From contig WRAC01000005.1 of the NCBI GenBank assembly GCA_009780415.1, positions 1 through 64,000 of the forward strand: a stretch of DNA of 64,000 nt. The letters run 5' to 3'. The stretch is from Defluviitaleaceae bacterium (GTDB taxonomy: Bacteria > Bacillota > Clostridia > Lachnospirales > WRAX01). This document shows, one piece after another, positions 34,941 to 48,392 of this stretch (positions are counted from its first letter, which is position 1; each line of letters starts with the position of its first letter). The notes below the pieces were generated by a model. The model was not told where the DNA came from and made no database searches. It saw nothing but the letters and a program-made list of their open reading frames with translations. Both the position numbers and the translations under genes were made by a program.

Positions 34941-34970
34941 TTGGGGGCGGCGTCCCCAAGGTTTTATTTA
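34941..34970 (+). terminator. Intrinsic terminator after the radical SAM gene
   Basis: TTGGGG (34941-34946) pairs with TCCCCAA (34953-34959) around GCGGCG, followed by GGTTTTATTTATTT. The T run overlaps the last codon of the convergent corrinoid protein gene. Confidence 0.75.
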
Positions 34971-35605
34971 TTTAAAATCGCCTGCTTAGCGGCCTCGGCG
35001 GCGGAAGCGGCGTCGGCGGTGTAGATATCGGCGCCGGCGCTGTTGCGGAAGCTGTCCGTCACGGGCGCCCCGCCTATCATTATCGTCACGCTGTCACGGA
35101 TGCCGGCGGCCGTGAACGCTTCGACGGTGTTTTTCATTTCGCCCATTGTCGTGGTCAGAAGCGCGGATAAAGCGACAACGTCCGGTTTTTCGGTTTCATA
35201 GGCTTCCACGAATTTTTCGGGGGAAACGTCTACGCCAAGGTCGACGACTTCGATGCCCTTGCCTTCAAACATCATGCGGACAAGATTCTTGCCGATATCG
35301 TGCAGATCGCCCTTTACCGTGCCGATAATCGCCTTGCCGATGGGTTTGGCCCCGGCTTCGGCAAGATGCGGCTTCAACAGTGTGGTTCCGGCATTCATCG
35401 CCCGCGCCGCTATTAATACTTCAGGGACGTACACCTCGTTTTTTTGGAACTTATCCGCGACGATATCCATACCCGCCAGCAAGCCTTTTTCCAAAATGTC
35501 CTTGGAACTGACGTTTTCGGACAGGGCCTGCTCGATCAGTTCCGTAACGGCTTTGGCTTTGCCGCTTTGCAGCGCTTCCGAAATTTGGTTAATAAGTTCG
35601 CTCAT
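34964..35605 (-). CDS. Corrinoid (B12-binding) methyl-carrier protein
   Basis: It has 213 residues. An N-terminal four-helix cap (residues 1-90) is followed by a B12-binding domain with DLHDIGKNLV, the DxHxxG cobalamin ligand motif near residue 104, and SALLTTTM plus GGAPVTDSF. This is the MtbC/MtaC type that carries a methyl group from substrate methyltransferase to acceptor. GGGAGG precedes the ATG. A weak promoter (TTAGAC at 35661-35666, TATCAT at 35637-35642) may lie in the 65-base gap after the UroD-like gene. Partner genes are upstream. Confidence 0.92.
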   Translation of the reverse strand: MSELINQISEALQSGKAKAVTELIEQALSENVSSKDILEKGLLAGMDIVADKFQKNEVYVPEVLIAARAMNAGTTLLKPHLAEAGAKPIGKAIIGTVKGDLHDIGKNLVRMMFEGKGIEVVDLGVDVSPEKFVEAYETEKPDVVALSALLTTTMGEMKNTVEAFTAAGIRDSVTIMIGGAPVTDSFRNSAGADIYTADAASAAEAAKQAILNK

Positions 35606-35670
35606 GTAATATTGCCTCCCAAGGTTAATTATTTGTATGATATCAAAAAATTCACAGTTTGTCTAACATT

Positions 35671-36747
35671 TTAGTATTTTCCCAGCTCCAAACCCTTTTC
35701 CAGAAAATACCGGAACGAGTCGTAACGCACCGTCGGCGGTATGGAATGGTCGCTGCTAAGAATGTATCCGAAACCGTCTTTTACAACGGGTATTTTGGAT
35801 TTTAACTCCGCGCCGATGATGTCCCGGTCGTTGGAATAAAGGCAGCGCACATCAATGCCGCCAAGCAAGGCAATTTTATCTCCGTAATTTTTATGTATGC
35901 GGAGCAAGTCCATCCCCGCCTTTATTTCAATGGTTTGATAACCGTTTATGCCCGCTTCGATCATCTTAGGAAGAAGCGGCTCAACATAACCGCAGGAATG
36001 CATAATCACGGGTAACTTCAAAGAACGCGCAAAATCAATCGTTTTCTTGTGCGACGGGAAAATCAGCTCACCGTACATTGCGGGAGACATAAACGGCCTT
36101 TCCTTAAAACCCATGTCCTCGCAAAACCAAAGGCCGTCCGGCTTGCCTTCTCTGGCAAACAATATTTCCATCAGCGCTACCGTCAGGTTCGCGTATGTTT
36201 CCGCCATATCCAAAATCCACCCGGGGTCAAGCGCCATCCCGGCCAACATATGCTCATGGCCCGCGATGGGGTGCATACACTCAAACACATTAACGCCGCT
36301 CCATGTGAAGAAACGGTTTGCTTTACGGGCGGCTTCCTTTGACTGCCTGTACCGCTCAAAATTAATCCTGCGCTCGTCCGGTTTAACCAGGAAAGGCTTG
36401 TATTCCTCCCAGTCGCGGCGCGTTTTGACCGTGAAATCAACGTGTTCCGGCGTGGTTTCTCGTTTTTTATGCCTTCTGAGGTATGCCCCGTTTCCGTCAA
36501 GGGTCGTTACGGTTTCATCCGTCTCGGCAACTATTTTGACGGTAAAATCAAGGTCGGCGGTGAGGTTAAAGGGCCAGCCCTCCTGCATGTCAAACCCGAA
36601 ATGATCCTCAAAGCTTTCGTCCGCGCCGACTTTGCCGTCTTTGCGGTATTCGGGGTAAGTCCCGTCCCAAAAATGCTCGTAAACGCCGAGCCTGTCCACG
36701 GGTTTCTTGTTCAGGATATTTGAAATACGCTCTATACCCGTCATCAT
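35671..36747 (-). CDS. Uroporphyrinogen decarboxylase-family (methyltransferase-like) protein
   Basis: It has 358 residues from the ATG at 36747, which overlaps the stop of the SGNH gene (ATGA); an ATG 8 codons upstream is inside that gene. The UroD-like barrel shows SDHSIPPTVRYDSFRYFLE and HSCGYVEPLLPKMIEAGINGYQTIE. In this branch the enzymes move methyl groups between corrinoid proteins and coenzymes or other acceptors rather than making haem. The adjacent corrinoid protein supports this. The donor substrate is unknown. Confidence 0.88.
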   Translation of the reverse strand: MMTGIERISNILNKKPVDRLGVYEHFWDGTYPEYRKDGKVGADESFEDHFGFDMQEGWPFNLTADLDFTVKIVAETDETVTTLDGNGAYLRRHKKRETTPEHVDFTVKTRRDWEEYKPFLVKPDERRINFERYRQSKEAARKANRFFTWSGVNVFECMHPIAGHEHMLAGMALDPGWILDMAETYANLTVALMEILFAREGKPDGLWFCEDMGFKERPFMSPAMYGELIFPSHKKTIDFARSLKLPVIMHSCGYVEPLLPKMIEAGINGYQTIEIKAGMDLLRIHKNYGDKIALLGGIDVRCLYSNDRDIIGAELKSKIPVVKDGFGYILSSDHSIPPTVRYDSFRYFLEKGLELGKY

Positions 36748-37379
36748 ATTACGCCAACGTGGCGCAGCCATTCCCGCGCAATCAACGCATGCCCGTAATC
36801 AGTGGGGTGTACGCCGTCCTCCGCTATATCGCGGGCCGGGACTCCCTGAACGGCGAAACGGGCCAGCAAGCCGTCCAACGGTATGTAGATATCGGCAAAT
36901 TCCCCCGCCAGCTCGCGCACGGCCTGTATCTTGGGCTCAAGGTCTTCGCGCCAGGCGTTCTGGCCCGGCAAGACGTGCAGGAGAAAGGGATCCATCATGA
37001 TGATTTTTGTTTCGGGGAGATCCCGTTTTATAAATGACAGCAGCTCACGGTAACCGCCGGTAAAAGTGTCTTCCGCTGTTGGGTCGCCGCTGTCATATCT
37101 GCGCCAGACATCGTTTATCCCGATAAGAATGGACAGCGCATCAGGCTTTAGCTCCAAAATATCCGCGGCATACCGCGCAAGCACGTCGCGCACGCGGTTC
37201 CCCGAAACGCCCCGGTTTAAAAATACGGTTCCCGAATCCGGGCACAGGGAGTTGTAAATATCAGCGGCACGTTTTACATAGCCGTTTCCCAATGAGCCGC
37301 AATCACAGCGGTCACGCCCGCAGTCCGTAACGGAATCCCCTTGAAACAATACTCTCTGTTTATTAAAAATATACTTCAT
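36744..37379 (-). CDS. SGNH/GDSL-type hydrolase
   Basis: It has 211 residues from the ATG at 37379; an in-frame TTG three codons earlier has a poorer ribosome site distance. The SGNH blocks are FQGDSVTDCG (Ser in block I near residue 17), NRGVSGNRVRDV (block II), IGINDVW (block III) and GVHPTDYGHALIA (block V with Asp and His). It is cytoplasmic, with no signal peptide. Such enzymes cut esters of sugars or lipids. It overlaps the UroD-like gene, so it may supply or process that enzyme's substrate; this is inference. Confidence 0.88.
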   Translation of the reverse strand: MKYIFNKQRVLFQGDSVTDCGRDRCDCGSLGNGYVKRAADIYNSLCPDSGTVFLNRGVSGNRVRDVLARYAADILELKPDALSILIGINDVWRRYDSGDPTAEDTFTGGYRELLSFIKRDLPETKIIMMDPFLLHVLPGQNAWREDLEPKIQAVRELAGEFADIYIPLDGLLARFAVQGVPARDIAEDGVHPTDYGHALIAREWLRHVGVI

Positions 37380-37640: not shown

Positions 37641-40600
37641 GTGAAAACACTCAGGAGTATAACGTACTTTCTTCTTTTTGCGATGCTGTTTACCGCCGTT
37701 TGTTCGGGCTGCCGGGATACCGGCGTACATAAATCCGCCGGAGCGCCGGCGTTCTCCACATACCGCGATATCCCCGGCGTTACAGCCGCGGAAATAGCGG
37801 CGATAGAAGCGTTGCGCGGGCAAACCGACTATTTTACATACGGAATGATGCACAGTACCGAGGCATTCATTGATGTTGACGGCAATACCGGCGGGTATGC
37901 CGTTTTGGTATGCGAATGGCTGACTGATTTGTTCGGGATTTCGTTCGTTCCAAGGATTGTTACATGGGAAGGCCTGTTTGAAGGGCTTGCAAACGGCGGG
38001 ATTGATTTTACCGGAACCTTGACGGCTGCCATGGAACGCGAACAAATATACCATATGACCACCCCCATCGCATGCCGCACGATAAAATCCTTCCGAATCA
38101 TAGGAAGCGAACCCCTTCCGGAAATCGCGCTAAAGCGCCTGCCGCGATATGCGCTCCTCCAGGGCGCGGCAAGCGCCGCCGATATCCTGCTTTACGCTAT
38201 TGAAGACTTTGAACCCGTATTTGTCAATGAATACATAGACGCGTACCGGCTGTTAAAATCCGGGGAGGCTGACGCCCTTCTCGCTGAAAATTCCGCGGAA
38301 GCTATTTTCGATGAATACGGCGATATATTAACATCGGTTTATATACCGATGATTCGCGCTTGCGTGTCTTTCGCAACGCAAAACCCCGAGCTTGCGCCGA
38401 TTGTCTCAGTCATGCAAAAAGCGCTGGATAACAGCGGTAATTATTATTTAGACGAGTTATATTACGAGGGCCATCAAGTGTATTTAAAGCATAAGATGCT
38501 TATGCGGCTTACCGATGAGGAGGTTGAGTACATAAGCAACAATCCCGTTATACCGCTTGGAGCCGAATTCGATAATTATCCCGTAAGTTTTTTTAATACC
38601 CACGATAACGTGTGGGAGGGGATAAGCTTTGATGTTCTCAAGCAAATTGAACTATTGACGGGGCTTGCATTTGAGGTAAAGAATAATAAAAATACGGCGT
38701 TCTTCGAACTTCTCCAAATGCTTCGGAATGGGGAAGTATATATTGTTTCAGAGGTAATACGCACCGACGACCGGGAAGGGTTGTATTTATGGCCCGAAAA
38801 CTCGTTTATGGAGGAACGGTCGGTGCTGATATCCCGGATAGACCATCAAAATATCAGCATAGACAGGATCCACGCCGAAACAATCGGATTAAGCAGAGGC
38901 ACCGCCCACGCCGAATTTTTCCGCAGACTGTTTCCGCATCACCCGGATACAATTGATTACGAAAGCCAGGAAGCCTCCTTTGACGCCCTGAGACGGGGCG
39001 AGGTGTGTATGGTGATGAACAGCTACAGCACGCTCCTGCATCTTACGCACTATCTGGAAGACCCTGATTTCAAGGCGAATTATATTTTCGACAACATGTT
39101 TACGTCAACCTTCGGCATTAACGTAAATCAACCCGTTTTACGCTCCGTCATCGATAAGTCGCTTGATTTTATCGACACCCGCGCAATCTCGGAGCAGTGG
39201 CGGCATAGGACATACGATTACGAGCTGAGGCTGGCCCGGGCAAGAATGCCGTGGTTTATCGGCACAACGGTTTTGACCGTGCTTGTCCTCATCCTTGTCG
39301 CCGCCGTGCTTGTCAGAAGCCGCCTTCATGAGAAGCGGCTGGAAAAAATCGTAGGGGAGCGCACCCACGAACTGGCGATCCAAACAACCACGCTCAGCAC
39401 ATTGTTTGATTCAATCCCCGACCATATATTTACAAAGGATTTTGACCTGCGTTATACGCATGTGAATAAAGCGCTTTTGGAACACCACGGCAAGCGCTTG
39501 GAAGACGTCATCGGTAAAACCGACTCGGAGGGCCTTGGCATACCCGAGGATATGGCGGCATTTTTTAATTACAATGACCGTGTGGTAATGCGCGAGGGGC
39601 GGACGGTTGTAATTCAGGAACACATACCCAATGTCAGCGGGGCGAACCCCCTTTACGAAACGGTAAAAATGCCGCTTATTGTGGACGGCGAAGCAGTCGG
39701 GATCATGGGCGTGGCGCATAATATTACAAAGCTTAAAGAATCGGAGCTTGCCATGGCGGCCCATTTTGAATATGTTAAGAAGCTGAGCGACGCGCTGGCG
39801 TTCATTACAAAATCCCCAACCATTTCCAACGGTAATCTGAAAAGCGCCGCCGATGTTATCGCACAGAAGGGCGGCCTTGCGCTGGACGCCGGCAGCGTCA
39901 GCGTTTGGCGCTTGGCGGAAGGAAGGGATGTTCTTGAAAACATCACAAAGTATGTTGTTTCAACCTGTGCGATTACCACTCAGGAAGACTTCGATATTTC
40001 ACAAAGGCCTGAATACGAGCGTCTCCTCAGAAACGAGCGGCTTATCGTTATAAATGATATAGTCACGAACGACCCGGGGGATTATTACAAATACAATACC
40101 AAGCTGCGCGCCATTCTTGAAGCCCCCATACGTATCGGCGGCAAGCTGTACGGGTTGGTCAGCATAGAGCAGGAAGCCTGCGAACGGTATCCGGGAAGGC
40201 GCGACTGGACGACTGAGGAGCAGAATTTCGCCTCGTCCCTTGCCGATATCATGGCGGTCGCTGTGACGAGCTACGAGCGGCGCATGGCAAGCGAGGAAGC
40301 GGAAATGGCCAATCAGGCCAAGTCCACTTTCCTGGCGAATATGAGCCACGAAATACGAACGCCGATGAACGCCATCCTGGGCGTTACCGAAATCCTTATG
40401 CAGGATGATACGCTTTCCGGCGAGGTTGAGGAAGGGCTTGACAAGATATATAATTCGTGCAATCTGCTTCTGGGCATCATCAACGATATACTGGACTTCT
40501 CCAAGATAGAGGCGGGGAAGATGGACATAACACCCGCGCGGTATAAGGTCGCCAGCCTGATAAACGACGCCGTGCAGCTTAATATGATGCGGATAGACAG

Positions 40601-42683
40601 CAAACCCATCGAATTTGAGCTTCAAATTGACGGGGACGTCCCGGAAAAACTGGTTGGCGACGAGGTACGCATAAAACAGATTTTGAACAACCTGCTTTCC
40701 AACGCCTTTAAATACACGGATTCCGGCAAGGTTACGCTGTCGGTCTCAGCGGAACCCGGGGTGGATAAAGACGTGGTAACGCTGATTTTCGGCGTGCGCG
40801 ATACGGGCTTTGGCATGACGGAGGCTCAGCTTGGCAAATTGTTTGACGAGTATTCCCGGTTTGCAAAGACCGACGCAACCATCGAGGGCGCGGGATTGGG
40901 CCTTGCCATCACCCAACGGCTGACCGGCCTTATGGAGGGCGGGATACATGTTGAGAGCGAGCCCGGCGCAGGCTCCATGTTTACGGTGTGGCTGCCTCAG
41001 GGGAAGGTTGACGGCAATGTGCTGGGCGGGGATGTCGCCGAAAACCTGAAGCAATTCCGCACGAACTATATGGCGAATAAGAAAAGGCCCCAGATTGCCC
41101 GTGACCCGATGCCTTACGGGAACATCCTCCTTGTCGACGACGTGGAGACGAACCTGTATGTCGCCGTGGGCCTGATGAAGCTTTACAAGCTGCGGATCGA
41201 CACCGTAATGAGAGGGCGCGATGCCATCGACAAAATAAAAGCCGGCAATGTGTACGATATTATATTTATGGATCATATGATGCCGGAAATGGACGGCATA
41301 GAGACGACGAGGCATTTGCGCGATATGGGGTATACAAGACCCATTGTGGCGCTGACGGCCAACGCCGTGTCCGGCCAGTCGGATATGTTTTTGCAAAACG
41401 GCTTCGATGAGTTCATTTCAAAGCCGATTGACGTACGCCAGCTGAACTCCATACTTCTGCGGCTTGTAAGGGACAAGCAGCCCCCCGAGGTCATTGAGGC
41501 CGCGCGCCTGGAAATGGACAGGCAAAAAGGAGCGCAGGACGAGGACGGCGAGCATCCGAAAACGGACGCGATGCTGATGGAGTCCTTTATGCGGGATGCC
41601 CGCAAGGCGATAGAGGCTTTGGAAGAGCAGCGCGAAAAAGGCGGGTTTGAGGACGCCGAATCCCTGCGTAAGTTTACCGCCATCGTACACGGCATGAAAA
41701 GCTCCCTGCTTTATATCGGCGAGCCGGCGCTTTCAGACGAGGCGTTTAAACTGGAAACAGCGGGGCGCAAGCAGGATACGGACTTGATAACGTCGTCCGT
41801 TTGCGGGTTTGTGGATGAATTACGTTCGCTTATAGATAAACTGACAAAAACCCGTGAAGCCGCCGGCACAGCCGGGGATACGCGGGATATACGCGGCAGG
41901 CTGCTGGCCATTGCGGAAATGTGCGCGGATTATAACAGGAAGGATGCCTTGAAAGCCATTGCCGGGATCGAAAACCCCTCCGCCGGAACAAGGGCGGTAT
42001 TGGTTAATATTAAGGAACTGATTCTGCACAGTGAATTTGAGGAAGCCGAAAGCGTGCTGGAAGCATACGCATCCGGCCTGACCGGCGGCTGTGACTCAAA
42101 AACACCGCCTATTATCCAAAACAAGGAAATAACCGGGCTGGACATTGCCAAAGGCATAAAACGGTATGACGGCGACGAAAATACATATATCAAAATACTG
42201 CGCTCATATGCCGCAAACATCCGCTCCATATTAGATTCATTGGGGACTGTAGGCGAAGAGAGCCTTAAAGAGTATAAAATCAAGGTACACGGCATCAAAG
42301 GGGCAAGCTTTGATATCTTTGCCCCCGAAATAGGCGAAGCGGCGAAAAAACTGGAGGAAGCGGCAACCGTCGGCGACCTCGTTTATATACACGGGCATAA
42401 TCCGGCATTCGTTGAATCCGCGCGGATATTCATAGGCGATATTGACGGTGTGCTCTCAGCCATAGACGCGGAAAACCCCAAACCCAAAAAAGACAAGCCG
42501 GACCCCGGGGTGCTGTCAAAGCTGAGCGATGCCTGTGTCATCTACGATATAACCGGCGTGGACGCCGCGATGGACGAGATAGAAAAATACCGGTATGAAT
42601 CCGATGGCGGCCTTGCAAGCTGGCTGCGGGAGAACGTGGATATGATGAGATTCCCGCAGATCGTTGAAAAACTTACGGAGTAA
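37641..42683 (+). CDS. Giant hybrid sensor histidine kinase with two solute-binding domains
   Basis: It has 1680 residues; GTG start after AAGGTGG. An export signal (MKTLRSITYFLLFAMLFTAV...C, possible lipid attachment at Cys24) leads to two SBP_bac_3-like sensor domains (about 55-270 and 300-515), then one membrane helix (536-556, WFIGTTVLTVLVLILVAAVLV), PAS (590-697), GAF (706-873), HisKA with SHEIRTPMN (His about 901), HATPase (N box about 1006, DTGFGM about 1054, GAGLGLAI about 1082), a receiver with MDHMMPEMDG (Asp about 1210) and two Hpt-like parts with VHGMKSS (about 1349) and VHGIKGAS (about 1549). Extracellular small-molecule binding should feed a phosphorelay to the receivers encoded next. 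Confidence 0.93.
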   Translation: MKTLRSITYFLLFAMLFTAVCSGCRDTGVHKSAGAPAFSTYRDIPGVTAAEIAAIEALRGQTDYFTYGMMHSTEAFIDVDGNTGGYAVLVCEWLTDLFGISFVPRIVTWEGLFEGLANGGIDFTGTLTAAMEREQIYHMTTPIACRTIKSFRIIGSEPLPEIALKRLPRYALLQGAASAADILLYAIEDFEPVFVNEYIDAYRLLKSGEADALLAENSAEAIFDEYGDILTSVYIPMIRACVSFATQNPELAPIVSVMQKALDNSGNYYLDELYYEGHQVYLKHKMLMRLTDEEVEYISNNPVIPLGAEFDNYPVSFFNTHDNVWEGISFDVLKQIELLTGLAFEVKNNKNTAFFELLQMLRNGEVYIVSEVIRTDDREGLYLWPENSFMEERSVLISRIDHQNISIDRIHAETIGLSRGTAHAEFFRRLFPHHPDTIDYESQEASFDALRRGEVCMVMNSYSTLLHLTHYLEDPDFKANYIFDNMFTSTFGINVNQPVLRSVIDKSLDFIDTRAISEQWRHRTYDYELRLARARMPWFIGTTVLTVLVLILVAAVLVRSRLHEKRLEKIVGERTHELAIQTTTLSTLFDSIPDHIFTKDFDLRYTHVNKALLEHHGKRLEDVIGKTDSEGLGIPEDMAAFFNYNDRVVMREGRTVVIQEHIPNVSGANPLYETVKMPLIVDGEAVGIMGVAHNITKLKESELAMAAHFEYVKKLSDALAFITKSPTISNGNLKSAADVIAQKGGLALDAGSVSVWRLAEGRDVLENITKYVVSTCAITTQEDFDISQRPEYERLLRNERLIVINDIVTNDPGDYYKYNTKLRAILEAPIRIGGKLYGLVSIEQEACERYPGRRDWTTEEQNFASSLADIMAVAVTSYERRMASEEAEMANQAKSTFLANMSHEIRTPMNAILGVTEILMQDDTLSGEVEEGLDKIYNSCNLLLGIINDILDFSKIEAGKMDITPARYKVASLINDAVQLNMMRIDSKPIEFELQIDGDVPEKLVGDEVRIKQILNNLLSNAFKYTDSGKVTLSVSAEPGVDKDVVTLIFGVRDTGFGMTEAQLGKLFDEYSRFAKTDATIEGAGLGLAITQRLTGLMEGGIHVESEPGAGSMFTVWLPQGKVDGNVLGGDVAENLKQFRTNYMANKKRPQIARDPMPYGNILLVDDVETNLYVAVGLMKLYKLRIDTVMRGRDAIDKIKAGNVYDIIFMDHMMPEMDGIETTRHLRDMGYTRPIVALTANAVSGQSDMFLQNGFDEFISKPIDVRQLNSILLRLVRDKQPPEVIEAARLEMDRQKGAQDEDGEHPKTDAMLMESFMRDARKAIEALEEQREKGGFEDAESLRKFTAIVHGMKSSLLYIGEPALSDEAFKLETAGRKQDTDLITSSVCGFVDELRSLIDKLTKTREAAGTAGDTRDIRGRLLAIAEMCADYNRKDALKAIAGIENPSAGTRAVLVNIKELILHSEFEEAESVLEAYASGLTGGCDSKTPPIIQNKEITGLDIAKGIKRYDGDENTYIKILRSYAANIRSILDSLGTVGEESLKEYKIKVHGIKGASFDIFAPEIGEAAKKLEEAATVGDLVYIHGHNPAFVESARIFIGDIDGVLSAIDAENPKPKKDKPDPGVLSKLSDACVIYDITGVDAAMDEIEKYRYESDGGLASWLRENVDMMRFPQIVEKLTE

Positions 42684-42703
42684 GGTTTAAAGGAGTTTTG
42701 AAC

Positions 42704-43501
42704 ATGAACGGCACGCGTAAGAAGATTATGCTGATTGACGACATCAATTACCACTTGATGTCCACAAAGGAAAGGTTAAAGGCATATTACGATGTTTATA
42801 CCGCCAGGACTGCGGAGATTTTCTTTGAGACGCTGGAAAATGTTACGCCCGATATTGTATTGCTGGATATTAATATGCCGGATGCGGATGGTTATGAGGT
42901 TTTTGACCGGTTTAAGGCCGATACGCGTTTTGACGGGATACCGGTGGTGTTTCTGACATCGCAGAACGACAGGAAGAATATAATCAAGAGCATGAATCTG
43001 GGCGTGTCCGATTTTATAACCAAGCCCTATACCGACACGGAATTGACCGAATGCATAGAGTATCAGCTGCATCCTGAAAAACGCGGCACGAACAAACCTA
43101 TAATCCTGGCTGTTGACGACAACCCCAGCATCTTAAAAACGCTCAACGCTTTATTGCAGGAGGATTACACGGTATATACGCTGCCGGAACCGGATAAGAT
43201 GCAGGTGCTGCTGGGTATTGTAACCCCGGATTTATTTCTGCTGGACTATATGATGCCCGTAATAAACGGGTTTGACCTTGTCCCGGTAATACGGAAAATT
43301 CCGGTGCACGCGGAAACCCCGATAATGTACTTGACATCCGAGGCTACGATTGATAACATTTCCGTGGCGATGACCATCGGGGCCTGCGATTTCCTGGTAA
43401 AGCCAATCAACGACAGGATATTGCGTGAAAAAGTAGCTATGCATACGAAGAATTTTATTATGATGCGCCGTTTGAGGGAGCTTGACACAAACAGAAGATA
43501 G
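42704..43501 (+). CDS. Double-receiver response regulator
   Basis: It has 265 residues from the ATG at 42704 with AGGAG before it; a TTG two codons earlier is less likely. It has two tandem REC domains and no output domain: the first with LIDDIN and LLDINMPDADG (Asp near 50), the second with AVDDNPS and LLDYMMPVINGFD (Asp near 180), each with a KP motif (TKPYTD, VKPIND). It lies 20 bases after the kinase. A role as phosphate relay or sink is inferred. Confidence 0.9.
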   Translation: MNGTRKKIMLIDDINYHLMSTKERLKAYYDVYTARTAEIFFETLENVTPDIVLLDINMPDADGYEVFDRFKADTRFDGIPVVFLTSQNDRKNIIKSMNLGVSDFITKPYTDTELTECIEYQLHPEKRGTNKPIILAVDDNPSILKTLNALLQEDYTVYTLPEPDKMQVLLGIVTPDLFLLDYMMPVINGFDLVPVIRKIPVHAETPIMYLTSEATIDNISVAMTIGACDFLVKPINDRILREKVAMHTKNFIMMRRLRELDTNRR

Positions 43502-43514
43502 GGGGAGTTTTGCC

Positions 43515-43880
43515 TTGCAGGGATTGGTTTTTATTGTTGACGATAACGACGCCAACCTGACCGTAGCCGCGTCGGCGCTGGAGAACGATTACCGTGTGCT
43601 GACGATGCCTTCCGCGCAAAAAATGTTTGCGCTTTTGAATAAAAAGAAACCGGATATAATTCTGCTGGATGTTGAAATGCCAGAAATGAGCGGGCTTGAA
43701 GCTATTGTTGAATTGAAGAGGAATCCGGAATGGAGCGGTATCCCCGTTTTTTTTGTTACAGGCTGGATTGACGACGGGCTTATAAACAAGGCCATGGAAT
43801 TGGGCGCGGTGAACGTTATAAGCAAGCCGTTCGTGCCGTCGGCGCTGCTTGAATGCATAAAAAATAGCGTAAAGGTGTAA
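43515..43880 (+). CDS. Single-domain receiver protein, TTG start
   Basis: It has 121 residues, a stand-alone REC domain. GGGGGAG lies 7 bases before the TTG at 43515; a further upstream ATG would overlap the previous gene by 20 bases. Acidic pocket VDDND, phospho-Asp in LLDVEMPEMSG (near residue 49) and SKPFVPSA are present. There is no output domain. It stands between the double receiver and the diguanylate cyclase. Confidence 0.87.
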   Translation: MQGLVFIVDDNDANLTVAASALENDYRVLTMPSAQKMFALLNKKKPDIILLDVEMPEMSGLEAIVELKRNPEWSGIPVFFVTGWIDDGLINKAMELGAVNVISKPFVPSALLECIKNSVKV

Positions 43881-43883
43881 AAC

Positions 43884-44783
43884 ATGGGTAAGAAACATAG
43901 CGTGCTTGTTATCGACGATCAGGAAACAACCATTTGGGCCCTTACGAGGATGTTAAACTCCGATTATAACGTTTATGCGGCAAAAAGCGGGGTTGAGGGC
44001 ATATTAGCCGCTGAAAGGCATCTGCCCGACGTTATTTTGCTGGACATACTTATGCTGGATATGGACGGTTACGCCGTAATTACGGAACTTAAAAAATCCG
44101 AGAAAACAATGCACATCCCCGTCATTTTTATCACGGGGCTATATGGTGATGACAACGAGGAGAAAGCGCTTGCTTTGGGGGCCGCCGATTATATCACCAA
44201 GCCATTTTCCCCCGATATCGTGAAGCTTAGGTTAAGGAACCAGATAAGAATGCTTGAGCAGCTTAGGACAATCGAGCGGCTTAGTATGCATGACCAGCTT
44301 ACGGAACTGCCCAACAGGCGCAGTTTTGAGATACGGCTGAAGGAAGAATGGGGAAGGTCTGCGCGTGAGCATACCCCGCTCAGCGCTCTGGTGGTTGATA
44401 TAGATAATTTTAAAATATATAACGATACTTATGGACACCAGCAGGGGGACGCCGCGCTGCAGGCCGTCGCCGGGATATTCCCCCGGGTATTGAAACGCAC
44501 AAGCGACTTTGCCGCGCGCTGGGGCGGCGAGGAGTTTATAGTGCTTTTATACAACACATGCGCGGACGGCGCAAAGGACGTCGCGGAGCAATTGCGCAAA
44601 CATGCCGAGGACATGGAAATCCCCGGCCCCGACGGAATAACAAAGGTAACCGTCAGCATCGGCGCGAACACGCGGGAGCATGGCAACAGCTGCTCTGTAA
44701 ACGAATTTATCTCCGCCGCCGATATGGCGCTTTATGAAGCTAAGAACAAAGGCCGTAACCGGGTTTGCTGCAATGTAAATTAG
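43884..44783 (+). CDS. Receiver-GGDEF diguanylate cyclase
   Basis: It has 299 residues: REC domain (VIDDQE; Asp in LLDILMLDMDG near 52; TKPFSPD) followed by a GGDEF domain with the active-site motif GGEEF near residue 214. An inhibitory I-site RTSD lies exactly five residues before it, so product inhibition is likely. It makes c-di-GMP from two GTP. It is the terminal output of the operon begun by the giant kinase. Its stop overlaps the convergent rRNA methyltransferase gene by 4 bases. Confidence 0.94.
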   Translation: MGKKHSVLVIDDQETTIWALTRMLNSDYNVYAAKSGVEGILAAERHLPDVILLDILMLDMDGYAVITELKKSEKTMHIPVIFITGLYGDDNEEKALALGAADYITKPFSPDIVKLRLRNQIRMLEQLRTIERLSMHDQLTELPNRRSFEIRLKEEWGRSAREHTPLSALVVDIDNFKIYNDTYGHQQGDAALQAVAGIFPRVLKRTSDFAARWGGEEFIVLLYNTCADGAKDVAEQLRKHAEDMEIPGPDGITKVTVSIGANTREHGNSCSVNEFISAADMALYEAKNKGRNRVCCNVN

Positions 44784-46682: not shown

Positions 46683-48392
46683 TTATCCGGCACCTTCCTC
46701 CGCAAAGAACTTCCGGGTATTTTCCGCAATGGCTGATATGTTGTCGTAGGACGCGTTTACGCTGGCGCTGATCTTCACTATCATCTCGTTGACGGAACTG
46801 ATGGCGCCTGTTGCCTTAACGGAGGTATCCTTTGTCTGTTTTGCTGATTCGGCGGATCTGGTAGCCAGCGTTCTTATCTCCTCCGCCACAACGCTGAACG
46901 CGCGCCCCGCCGTACCGGCCCTGGCGGCTTCGATTGAGGCGTTCAGCGATATAATATTAATCTGCATCGCTATTTTTTCAATTTCCATGACCATCTTATT
47001 ATACGCGGTGATGGCATCGGTGATATCCTTTATGTTTGATACGATGCCCTCGGTCAGCTCCTTTGTATTTGCGGTGTCGGTAAGTATATATTCAAAGTTG
47101 CTCAAATTCGCCTTGGCTTCGGCATGTTCGCGCTGAACGTCCTTATGCGCCTTGTCAACGCAGTTGCCGGGAATATCAAGCCCCTTCGCTATCCTCAGCA
47201 CCATTTCATGGCAAGTGTCGCAGCCGCAAGCGCCGCAGTCGAACGTCCTGCCGGCTTCATCATGCTTGCCAAGCGCTTCGTAAATCTTTTTGATGGCTTC
47301 CTGTGAAACCTGTATACGGCGGGTCGGGAGGGGTTTGTAATGTCTTATGAAATCCTCCAGGCGCAGTGTTCTGTCAAATTCCTCAAACAGCTCGTCCAGA
47401 TACTGTCTCTTGTCCTCGCGGATTGAGTTTTTGCGCGCGGAATCCATTGATGTGTTCATATCAAACACGTTTTTGTTATGGATACAGCCGGTGCCAAGGT
47501 TGCATCCCTCCGCGCAGTTGAGTACGTCAAACACTGCGGGAAGCGCGTTGACCGGCTGGATGGCATATTCGTCCAGGGCTTTATAGACGACGTCCGGCCC
47601 TTCCGATTTATCTATGCGGAGGGCTTTGCCTATGTAATACTCCACATTTTCCTTCAACCCTCCGGGCATCGGGTAAAGCGAACCCAATCCTGAGTCATAA
47701 TGGTCGAACCCGGATGACTGGACGGGGAGGCTGATGCGGTGACTGTCCATATACTCTTGGAGCTTTTTGAAAGTGACGTTGTATTCCGCAAGGCCGGTGG
47801 CCTCGAATTCGTGGGTTTTCGCGATGCATGGGGAAAGCGCCGCGATTCTGGTATTTACATTGGCGTACTTTTTCATATATACCGCGGAGCAGAGCATGGG
47901 CGAATGTACGGGGGACAGCTTCTTGACCAGTTCATTTTTATGCAGCAGCACGTAATTCACAATAGCGGGGCATGGCTGTGAGATTATGGGGTTTGCGCCG
48001 TGTTTCTGGATATATCTGATATGCGCCCATGTGCAGATGTCCGCGCCAAGGGAAACATCGTGGATTTCCCTGACTCCAAGCTGACGCAGCCATGTCAGCA
48101 TACGCTCCCAGTCATTGAAGTTCGTTTTAAAAGCCGGCGCGGCAAAGACGCTGATGGGAACGCCGCTTTTCAGGTCACTGAAGAATCGCTCCGTATCGTC
48201 CTCGTACTGCCTCGCGCCGTGATGGCACGCGCTGATACAAGCTCCGCAGCTTATACATTTGCTGCTGTCCACCTCGACTTTGACATCTCCGCCGATTAGC
48301 CTGGAGATATTTGCTTCGTCAATAGGGCATACTCTAACGCAGCGGTTGCATCCGACGCAATTCTCGCTCAGGTTGATGATCAGGTTCCTCAT
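46683..48392 (-). CDS. Fusion of iron-only hydrogenase-like module to chemoreceptor signalling domain
   Basis: It has 569 residues and no membrane segment. Two ferredoxin 4Fe-4S sites (CVGCNRCVRVCP near 12-23, CISCGACISAC near 46-56) lead to a hydrogenase large-subunit-like domain with QPCPAIV near 140, LSPCIAKTHE near 187 and NCAEGCNLGTGC near 292. The four H-cluster ligand Cys positions appear kept, while the proton-relay Cys before CP is replaced by Pro. A further Fe-S domain (DCGACGCDTCHEM, near 386) and a C-terminal MCP module (INIISLNASIEAARAG ... VVAEEIRTLA, about 464-545) complete it. A cytoplasmic redox or H2 sensor for chemotaxis is inferred. Confidence 0.9.
   Translation of the reverse strand: MRNLIINLSENCVGCNRCVRVCPIDEANISRLIGGDVKVEVDSSKCISCGACISACHHGARQYEDDTERFFSDLKSGVPISVFAAPAFKTNFNDWERMLTWLRQLGVREIHDVSLGADICTWAHIRYIQKHGANPIISQPCPAIVNYVLLHKNELVKKLSPVHSPMLCSAVYMKKYANVNTRIAALSPCIAKTHEFEATGLAEYNVTFKKLQEYMDSHRISLPVQSSGFDHYDSGLGSLYPMPGGLKENVEYYIGKALRIDKSEGPDVVYKALDEYAIQPVNALPAVFDVLNCAEGCNLGTGCIHNKNVFDMNTSMDSARKNSIREDKRQYLDELFEEFDRTLRLEDFIRHYKPLPTRRIQVSQEAIKKIYEALGKHDEAGRTFDCGACGCDTCHEMVLRIAKGLDIPGNCVDKAHKDVQREHAEAKANLSNFEYILTDTANTKELTEGIVSNIKDITDAITAYNKMVMEIEKIAMQINIISLNASIEAARAGTAGRAFSVVAEEIRTLATRSAESAKQTKDTSVKATGAISSVNEMIVKISASVNASYDNISAIAENTRKFFAEEGAG

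Follow-up and report, generated by a model that had tools for sequence, protein, structure and literature searches.

HydDB lists among the [FeFe] hydrogenases a class C2, 'Chemotactic (putative)', in which an H domain is linked to an MCP and for which H2 sensing has been proposed (PMC5037454; this and the other papers given by PMC number are cited from excerpts). A survey of Clostridium acetogens dropped its C2 matches after further checks (PMC9431212). More broadly, the [FeFe] proteins of groups C and D are putative sensors whose partners have yet to be found (PMC13104023), and all groups arguably share the H-cluster since the maturases HydEFG are conserved (PMC8163306). For the termite gut, it is a published hypothesis that Fibrobacteres orient to H2 gradients via sensory hydrogenases (PMC4704652, citing Warnecke 2007). 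The fusion type, the C2 class and this H2-gradient hypothesis are already known. Work by Ballor from 2012 is also said to concern termite-gut sensory hydrogenases and orientation to H2. New in what follows are a receptor hairpin without methylation arms, the position of hydG right behind the sensor gene, and maturase-bearing genomes whose only H-domain proteins are of the sensor type.

The protein described here is encoded by a contig of a Defluviitaleaceae bacterium (WRAC01000005.1), the first 64,000 nucleotides of which are referred to as the window. Its features are as follows.

46683..48392, minus strand: whole gene of the hydrogenase-fold chemoreceptor, 569 aa (ORF and domain search)
48213..48368, minus strand: two 4Fe-4S motifs, C12 C15 C18 C22 and C46 C49 C52 C56, aa 9-60 (Pfam; alignment)
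47493..48152, minus strand: H domain, Fe_hyd_lg_C, aa 81-300 (Pfam and structure match)
47961..47981, minus strand: L1 motif SQPCPAI with ligand C141; P140 is at the position of the proton-relay Cys (residue alignment)
47808..47837, minus strand: L2 motif LSPCIAKTHE with ligand C189; S187 is at the Met353 and K192 at the Lys358 position
47484..47528, minus strand: L3 motif DVLNCAEGCNLGTGC with ligands C293 and C297; L291 is at the Met497 position (residue alignment)
47160..47237, minus strand: third FeS motif Cx2Cx4Cx16C, C386 C389 C394 C411 (alignment; scan of sensors)
46686..47159, minus strand: coiled-coil MCP hairpin lacking methylation arms, aa 412-569 (Pfam; model; arm lengths)
46893..46985, minus strand: tip of the hairpin, where contacts to CheA/CheW are predicted, aa 470-500 (alignment to Tsr, 1qu7)

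An earlier note on this DNA had proposed an order of two ferredoxin clusters, hydrogenase-like domain, another Fe-S domain and MCP module, and Pfam and alignment confirm it, the further Fe-S domain being the Cx2Cx4Cx16C motif (Fe_hyd_lg_C 86.6 bits; MCPsignal 81.7 bits, far above the cut-off). The Fe_hyd_lg_C match and four H-cluster cysteines together place the protein in the [FeFe] H-domain family. The fold of its H domain in the predicted model matches active [FeFe] hydrogenases, in a structure comparison that listed hydrogenases only and has no bearing on the hairpin. Confidence in the AlphaFold model (mean pLDDT 69.3) is low at the N-terminal clusters, the third FeS site and the hairpin.

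At the active site, all four H-cluster cysteines claimed by the note (C141, C189, C293 and C297) are indeed kept, and both substitutions it had pointed out are real: P140 occupies the position of CpI C299 (numbered along the 4xdc chain) and S187 that of CpI M353. In addition, L291 stands at the M497 position, while the lysine at the K358 position is kept as K192. The group A proton path C299-E279-S319-E282 is mostly gone: in alignment A2, H124 falls in the E279 column and E282 in a gap, and only S160, in the S319 column, is kept. The eight N-terminal 4Fe-4S cysteines do not vary across 22 aligned sequences, and neither do two extra cysteines, C120 and C168, which are also present in 49/49 sensors compared; the same 49 are identical at C141, S187, C189, K192, P243-L246, D289, L291, C293 and C297. 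Cx2Cx4Cx16C was found in 80/80 sensors scanned. One sensor locus, L107, has no QPCP frame and was left out of the residue and neighbour counts.

Among characterised proteins, the group D sensor TamHydS of Thermoanaerobacter mathranii is a close likeness, as it also carries two N-terminal 4Fe-4S clusters and a C-terminal Cx2Cx4Cx16C, has no PAS domain and shares Ser and Leu at the positions of M353 and M497 (PMC8163306). The window's protein shows the features by which group D is defined, i.e. the C-terminal Cx2Cx4Cx16C, M353 replaced by Ser/Thr and no PAS domain (PMC8163306). It differs from TamHydS in having Pro rather than Ala at C299, in adding the invariant C120 and C168 and a fused MCP hairpin, and in having Leu for the group-D-exclusive Glu252 (PMC10407848). 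The latter relay residue corresponds to L246 in the xGGx column, where L052 and L001 have Glu and Val, respectively; the correspondence was inferred via alignment A2, which does not contain the TamHydS sequence. Because of this Leu, we do not file the sensor under group D. The group C sensor TmHydS of Thermotoga maritima shares, according to the part of the source used, the C-terminal FeS motif, the loss of the relay Cys and a proposed sensory role, but has a PAS domain, a criterion of group C, whereas none was found in our protein (Pfam, E ≤ 0.01). With HydDB C2 it shares the hydrogenase-type domain joined to an MCP and the proposed sensing of H2 (PMC5037454); as a direct fusion it shows the link of H domain and MCP that marks C2 and would probably belong there, yet it is a 569-aa sensor without PAS domain and methylation arms.

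The genome also holds a paralogue of 1005 aa (L023:4084-7101; G000:C1) that shares the module of ferredoxin, H domain and FeS motif (43% identity in alignment A2) but differs in its output: HisKA-HATPase-receiver-Hpt instead of an MCP. Beside the paralogue lie genes of the double-receiver, hybrid-kinase and receiver-GGDEF type (neighbours named by eye), and at 37641-44783 the window has a hybrid kinase whose domains are SBP_bac_3, PAS, GAF, receiver and Hpt, followed by receiver-type and receiver-GGDEF-type ORFs. Both hydrogenase-fold sensors are hence near a similar set of hybrid-kinase, receiver and GGDEF genes (receiver and GGDEF again named by eye).

The signalling end is unusually short. 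Model helices 411-491 and 493-567 form a hairpin (AlphaFold, low confidence in that region), and 76 residues follow the tip glycine, compared with 128-129 in L015-L018, four of the seven other MCPsignal matches of the same genome; L019 has 287, and in L021 and L022 the arm-length scan recognised no tip. Across the 70/80 sensors in which both motifs were found, leaving out 10 rows without a tip motif, the median arms measure 86 and 75 residues (ranges 79-89 and 31-132), and the upper end of the second range means that in a few sensors the second arm is longer than in the window's copy. By arm lengths and by alignment to Tsr, the methylation helices needed for adaptation by CheR/CheB are absent: the second would fall past the C-terminus and the first onto the third FeS motif, going by the methylation-site numbers of Tsr. 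This mapping suggests that the third FeS site would feed the hairpin directly and that CheR/CheB would not adapt this sensor, raising the question of how an adaptation-less receptor guides swimming.

The note had held that a tip at odds with CheA/CheW contacts would count against its reading; the tip is recognisable by alignment to Tsr (1qu7). It keeps N381, E385 and R388, with Thr at the position of E391 (Tsr numbering). This Thr, together with a hairpin shorter than in the genome's other receptors, could be taken to mean that the hairpin works outside the chemotaxis array and has another output, which we regard as very improbable given the clear MCPsignal match, the three kept tip residues and the presence of CheA and CheW in the genome, which also encodes CheR and flagellar genes.

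What did not stand in the earlier interpretation is the view of the direct MCP fusion as 'less usual'; its reading of the residues and of how the domains are ordered did, as did the proposal of a chemoreceptor for H2 or redox state. At least 6016 homologues at E ≤ 1e-20 were found among 7999 candidates scored, and the best 120 all have both an H domain and an MCP domain at 93-100% coverage. Genome contigs contain 402 relatives, with titles spanning several phyla, the best 80 of which form our set of sensor loci. Many isolate codes among these 80 belong to what we take to be termite or cockroach gut MAGs. A PDB sequence search had hydrogenases, ferredoxin-type proteins and MCPs among the matches listed and no fusion of this kind.

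What argues for a real H-cluster in relatives is the company that the sensor gene keeps. In 9/79 loci with a readable sensor frame, titled Fibrobacterota, Deferribacteraceae or Azoarcus, hydG lies directly behind the sensor gene: in seven of the nine a possible hydG start follows 0-33 bases past the sensor stop, in L106 the two genes overlap by 4 bases, and in L064 they adjoin with the hydG start unsettled. Some maturase gene was seen in the flanks of 11/79 loci, the flanks being at most about 4 kb long and often ended by the contig. In L106 (titled Azoarcus), sensor, hydG, hydE and hydF follow one another with ends overlapping or close, although HydE scores slightly below its cut-off (249.8 vs 254.6 bits). 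L186 (Deferribacteraceae, G057) has sensor and hydG, then hydE; L183 (Fibrobacterota, G030) has sensor, hydG, a 318-aa ORF, hydF and a Crp-like regulator; and in L103, hydG and hydF are divergent from the sensor. The ORF in L183 (5667-6623) is lipoprotein-like by eye and has no Pfam match.

The genomes as wholes point the same way. Of the 28 maturase-bearing genomes (HydF and/or HydG present), 14 have sensor-type H-domain proteins only, counting as sensor-type a PF02906 protein below 125 bits and as HydA-like one of 125 bits or more. Sensor and maturase genes share a contig in 12/14 of these sensor-only genomes and in 0/14 of those bearing a HydA-like protein (p 6e-6), a linkage that is open to MAG binning error, chiefly for the Azoarcus record. 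From this linkage we infer that maturation in the sensor-only relatives would serve the chemoreceptor; linkage and sensor-only genomes together support a real H-cluster, and with it probable H2 sensing, in the linked relatives. Termite-gut sensory hydrogenases, for which H2 orientation has been proposed and whose carriers include Fibromonadaceae, are a close counterpart, and the excerpted text mentions neither maturase neighbours nor sensor-only [FeFe] genomes nor absent maturases (PMC4704652). Similarly, the titles and abstract openings of the open-access literature searched name no chemoreceptor-maturase operon.

In the mechanism that we propose, sensor, hydG and, in some cases, hydE and hydF would form an operon in relatives, and the maturases would load the sensor with the [2Fe] subcluster. 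Binding of H2 to the predicted H-cluster would alter the cluster or the protein conformation, and the change would be relayed via the third FeS site, which appears to abut the hairpin where ordinary receptors have their methylation sites. The output of CheA, contacted together with CheW, may then shift without CheR/CheB adaptation at this receptor, and the cell would probably follow H2 gradients as it swims. We extend the same mechanism to the window's copy because of its identity to the linked sensors (58-61% to those of Fibrobacterota, 49-52% to the others) and its identical pocket; in a quick tree, it falls into a supported clade of 30 rows that includes the linked Fibrobacterota sensors. 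The largely lost group A proton path and the Leu in place of the group D Glu weigh against this mechanism.

A real H-cluster would not by itself settle the ligand. H-clusters bind CO, and the two N-terminal clusters would accept electrons from ferredoxin, so the ligand could be a small molecule other than H2, for example CO, or the cue could be the ferredoxin/NADH redox state as read via the cluster. We hold this to be improbable, if less so than an output outside the array: many relatives look like MAGs from termite or cockroach guts, as we presume from their isolate codes, and for Fibrobacteres in such guts it is H2 gradients that have been put forward as the cue (PMC4704652). Moreover, inhibition by CO is decreased in TamHydS (PMC8163306).

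For the window's copy itself, the maturases are unaccounted for despite the identical pocket. The genome (2.53 Mb in 85 contigs, rated 100% complete) yields best scores of 94.1 bits for HydF (cut-off 325.55), 33.6 for HydG (312.15) and 108.9 for HydE (254.6), none of which counts as a find; the earlier note had regarded such an absence as speaking against its reading, and at face value it does. Nor is this genome alone. Among 16 genomes of the family, HydF passes in 2, HydG in 2 (with fragments in another 2) and HydE in 3, and 9/14 HydA-bearing members show no maturase trace where 2.5 would be expected from marker completeness (P 5e-5), which excludes MAG incompleteness as the whole reason. 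Hence the possibility that a [4Fe-4S] cluster is all that the H domain carries in the window's lineage and the protein is a chemoreceptor for redox state rather than H2, charged via its ferredoxin domain. In line with this, the pocket shows the same invariance whether the sensors come from maturase-negative (21) or maturase-positive (28) genomes, so that its conservation seems not to require [2Fe].

Several findings weigh against such a reading. In G012, hydE, hydG and hydF are contiguous, so that one gap can lose all three, and in G002, G003 and G004 lone or cut maturase genes sit on contigs of 4-5 kb. More widely, across 50 sensor-bearing genomes (the 80 loci have 71 distinct WGS prefixes, of which the first 50 were taken), HydF is present in 27, HydG in 27, both in 26 and neither in 22. 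A catalytic-type HydA is kept in 18/22 of the maturase-negative genomes, and a pattern scan found L2 and L3 intact in 14/17 HydA loci fetched from them, having misread L2 or L3 in three of the 17 and L1 in two. This persistence with intact motifs suggests that the H-cluster is still made and that maturases are dropping out of assemblies. Likewise, the maturase call is not the same for L077 as for L078 and L079, close sensors whose MAGs share a sample prefix, and hydG adjoins the sensor in relatives.

The absence nevertheless has a lineage signal: HydF and HydG are both missing from 18/25 Bacillota vs 4/25 other genomes (p 1.5e-4; phyla taken from record titles and counted by hand), and the maturase label changes 14 times on the sensor tree compared with a mean of 19.7 in shuffles, only 4/500 of which are as low. 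Setting the persistence of HydA and pocket against the excess of absent maturases (9 vs 2.5), we lean towards an H2 chemoreceptor with an H-cluster that signals to CheA/CheW for the window's protein as well, judging from its sequence, and consider a [4Fe-4S]-only redox receptor clearly less likely. The short argument 'no maturases, therefore no H2 sensor' was rejected in view of hydG behind sensor genes, the sensor-only maturase genomes and HydA persistence in maturase-negative genomes.

A combination of the two is conceivable, albeit doubtful: a receptor-hydG-hydE-hydF cassette for H2 taxis in some lineages and, in the window's maturase-less lineage of Bacillota, a redox receptor with a [4Fe-4S] cluster only, its H-cluster pocket being fully kept. 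If this were true, H-cluster synthesis in the cassette mode would serve taxis alone. The maturase-negative genomes also call into question the claim that all groups share the H-cluster via conserved HydEFG (PMC8163306). Where the receptor stands beside its own maturases and no other [FeFe] hydrogenase was found, an effect of hydG loss on H2 taxis could be traced to the receptor.

A few further observations concern the maturase and HydA searches. The genome's own HydA carries TSCSPGW, which might suggest a non-hydrogenase; this was dismissed, as HydA1 of Acetobacterium woodii (7q4v) shares the motif. TSCSP occurs at 9/15 maturase-negative and 2/8 maturase-positive HydA loci (of 17 and 13 loci, the others being misread or unprinted). 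In the family member G004, hydG ends mid-gene (L181:3175-4395; G004:C73), and behind it, on the other strand, comes an ORF bearing DUF4368, a domain that we take to be associated with site-specific recombinases. The genes upstream are TM1266-like and prismane genes. HydG/ThiH-like matches that each contain a single in-frame TGA occur in two MAGs titled Clostridiales Family XIII (G051:C82:11237-12235 and G063:C43:18458-19459).

Finally, a HydE-like match in the window's genome (G000:C29) was ruled out as a maturase, being PylB (398.8 bits) beside PylD (L028:702-2505). The genome likely uses pyrrolysine, as far as these genes tell, and its TAG codons therefore deserve care. In keeping with this, the window encodes an MtgC/MtbC-type corrinoid protein beside a URO-D-type gene at 34964-36771.
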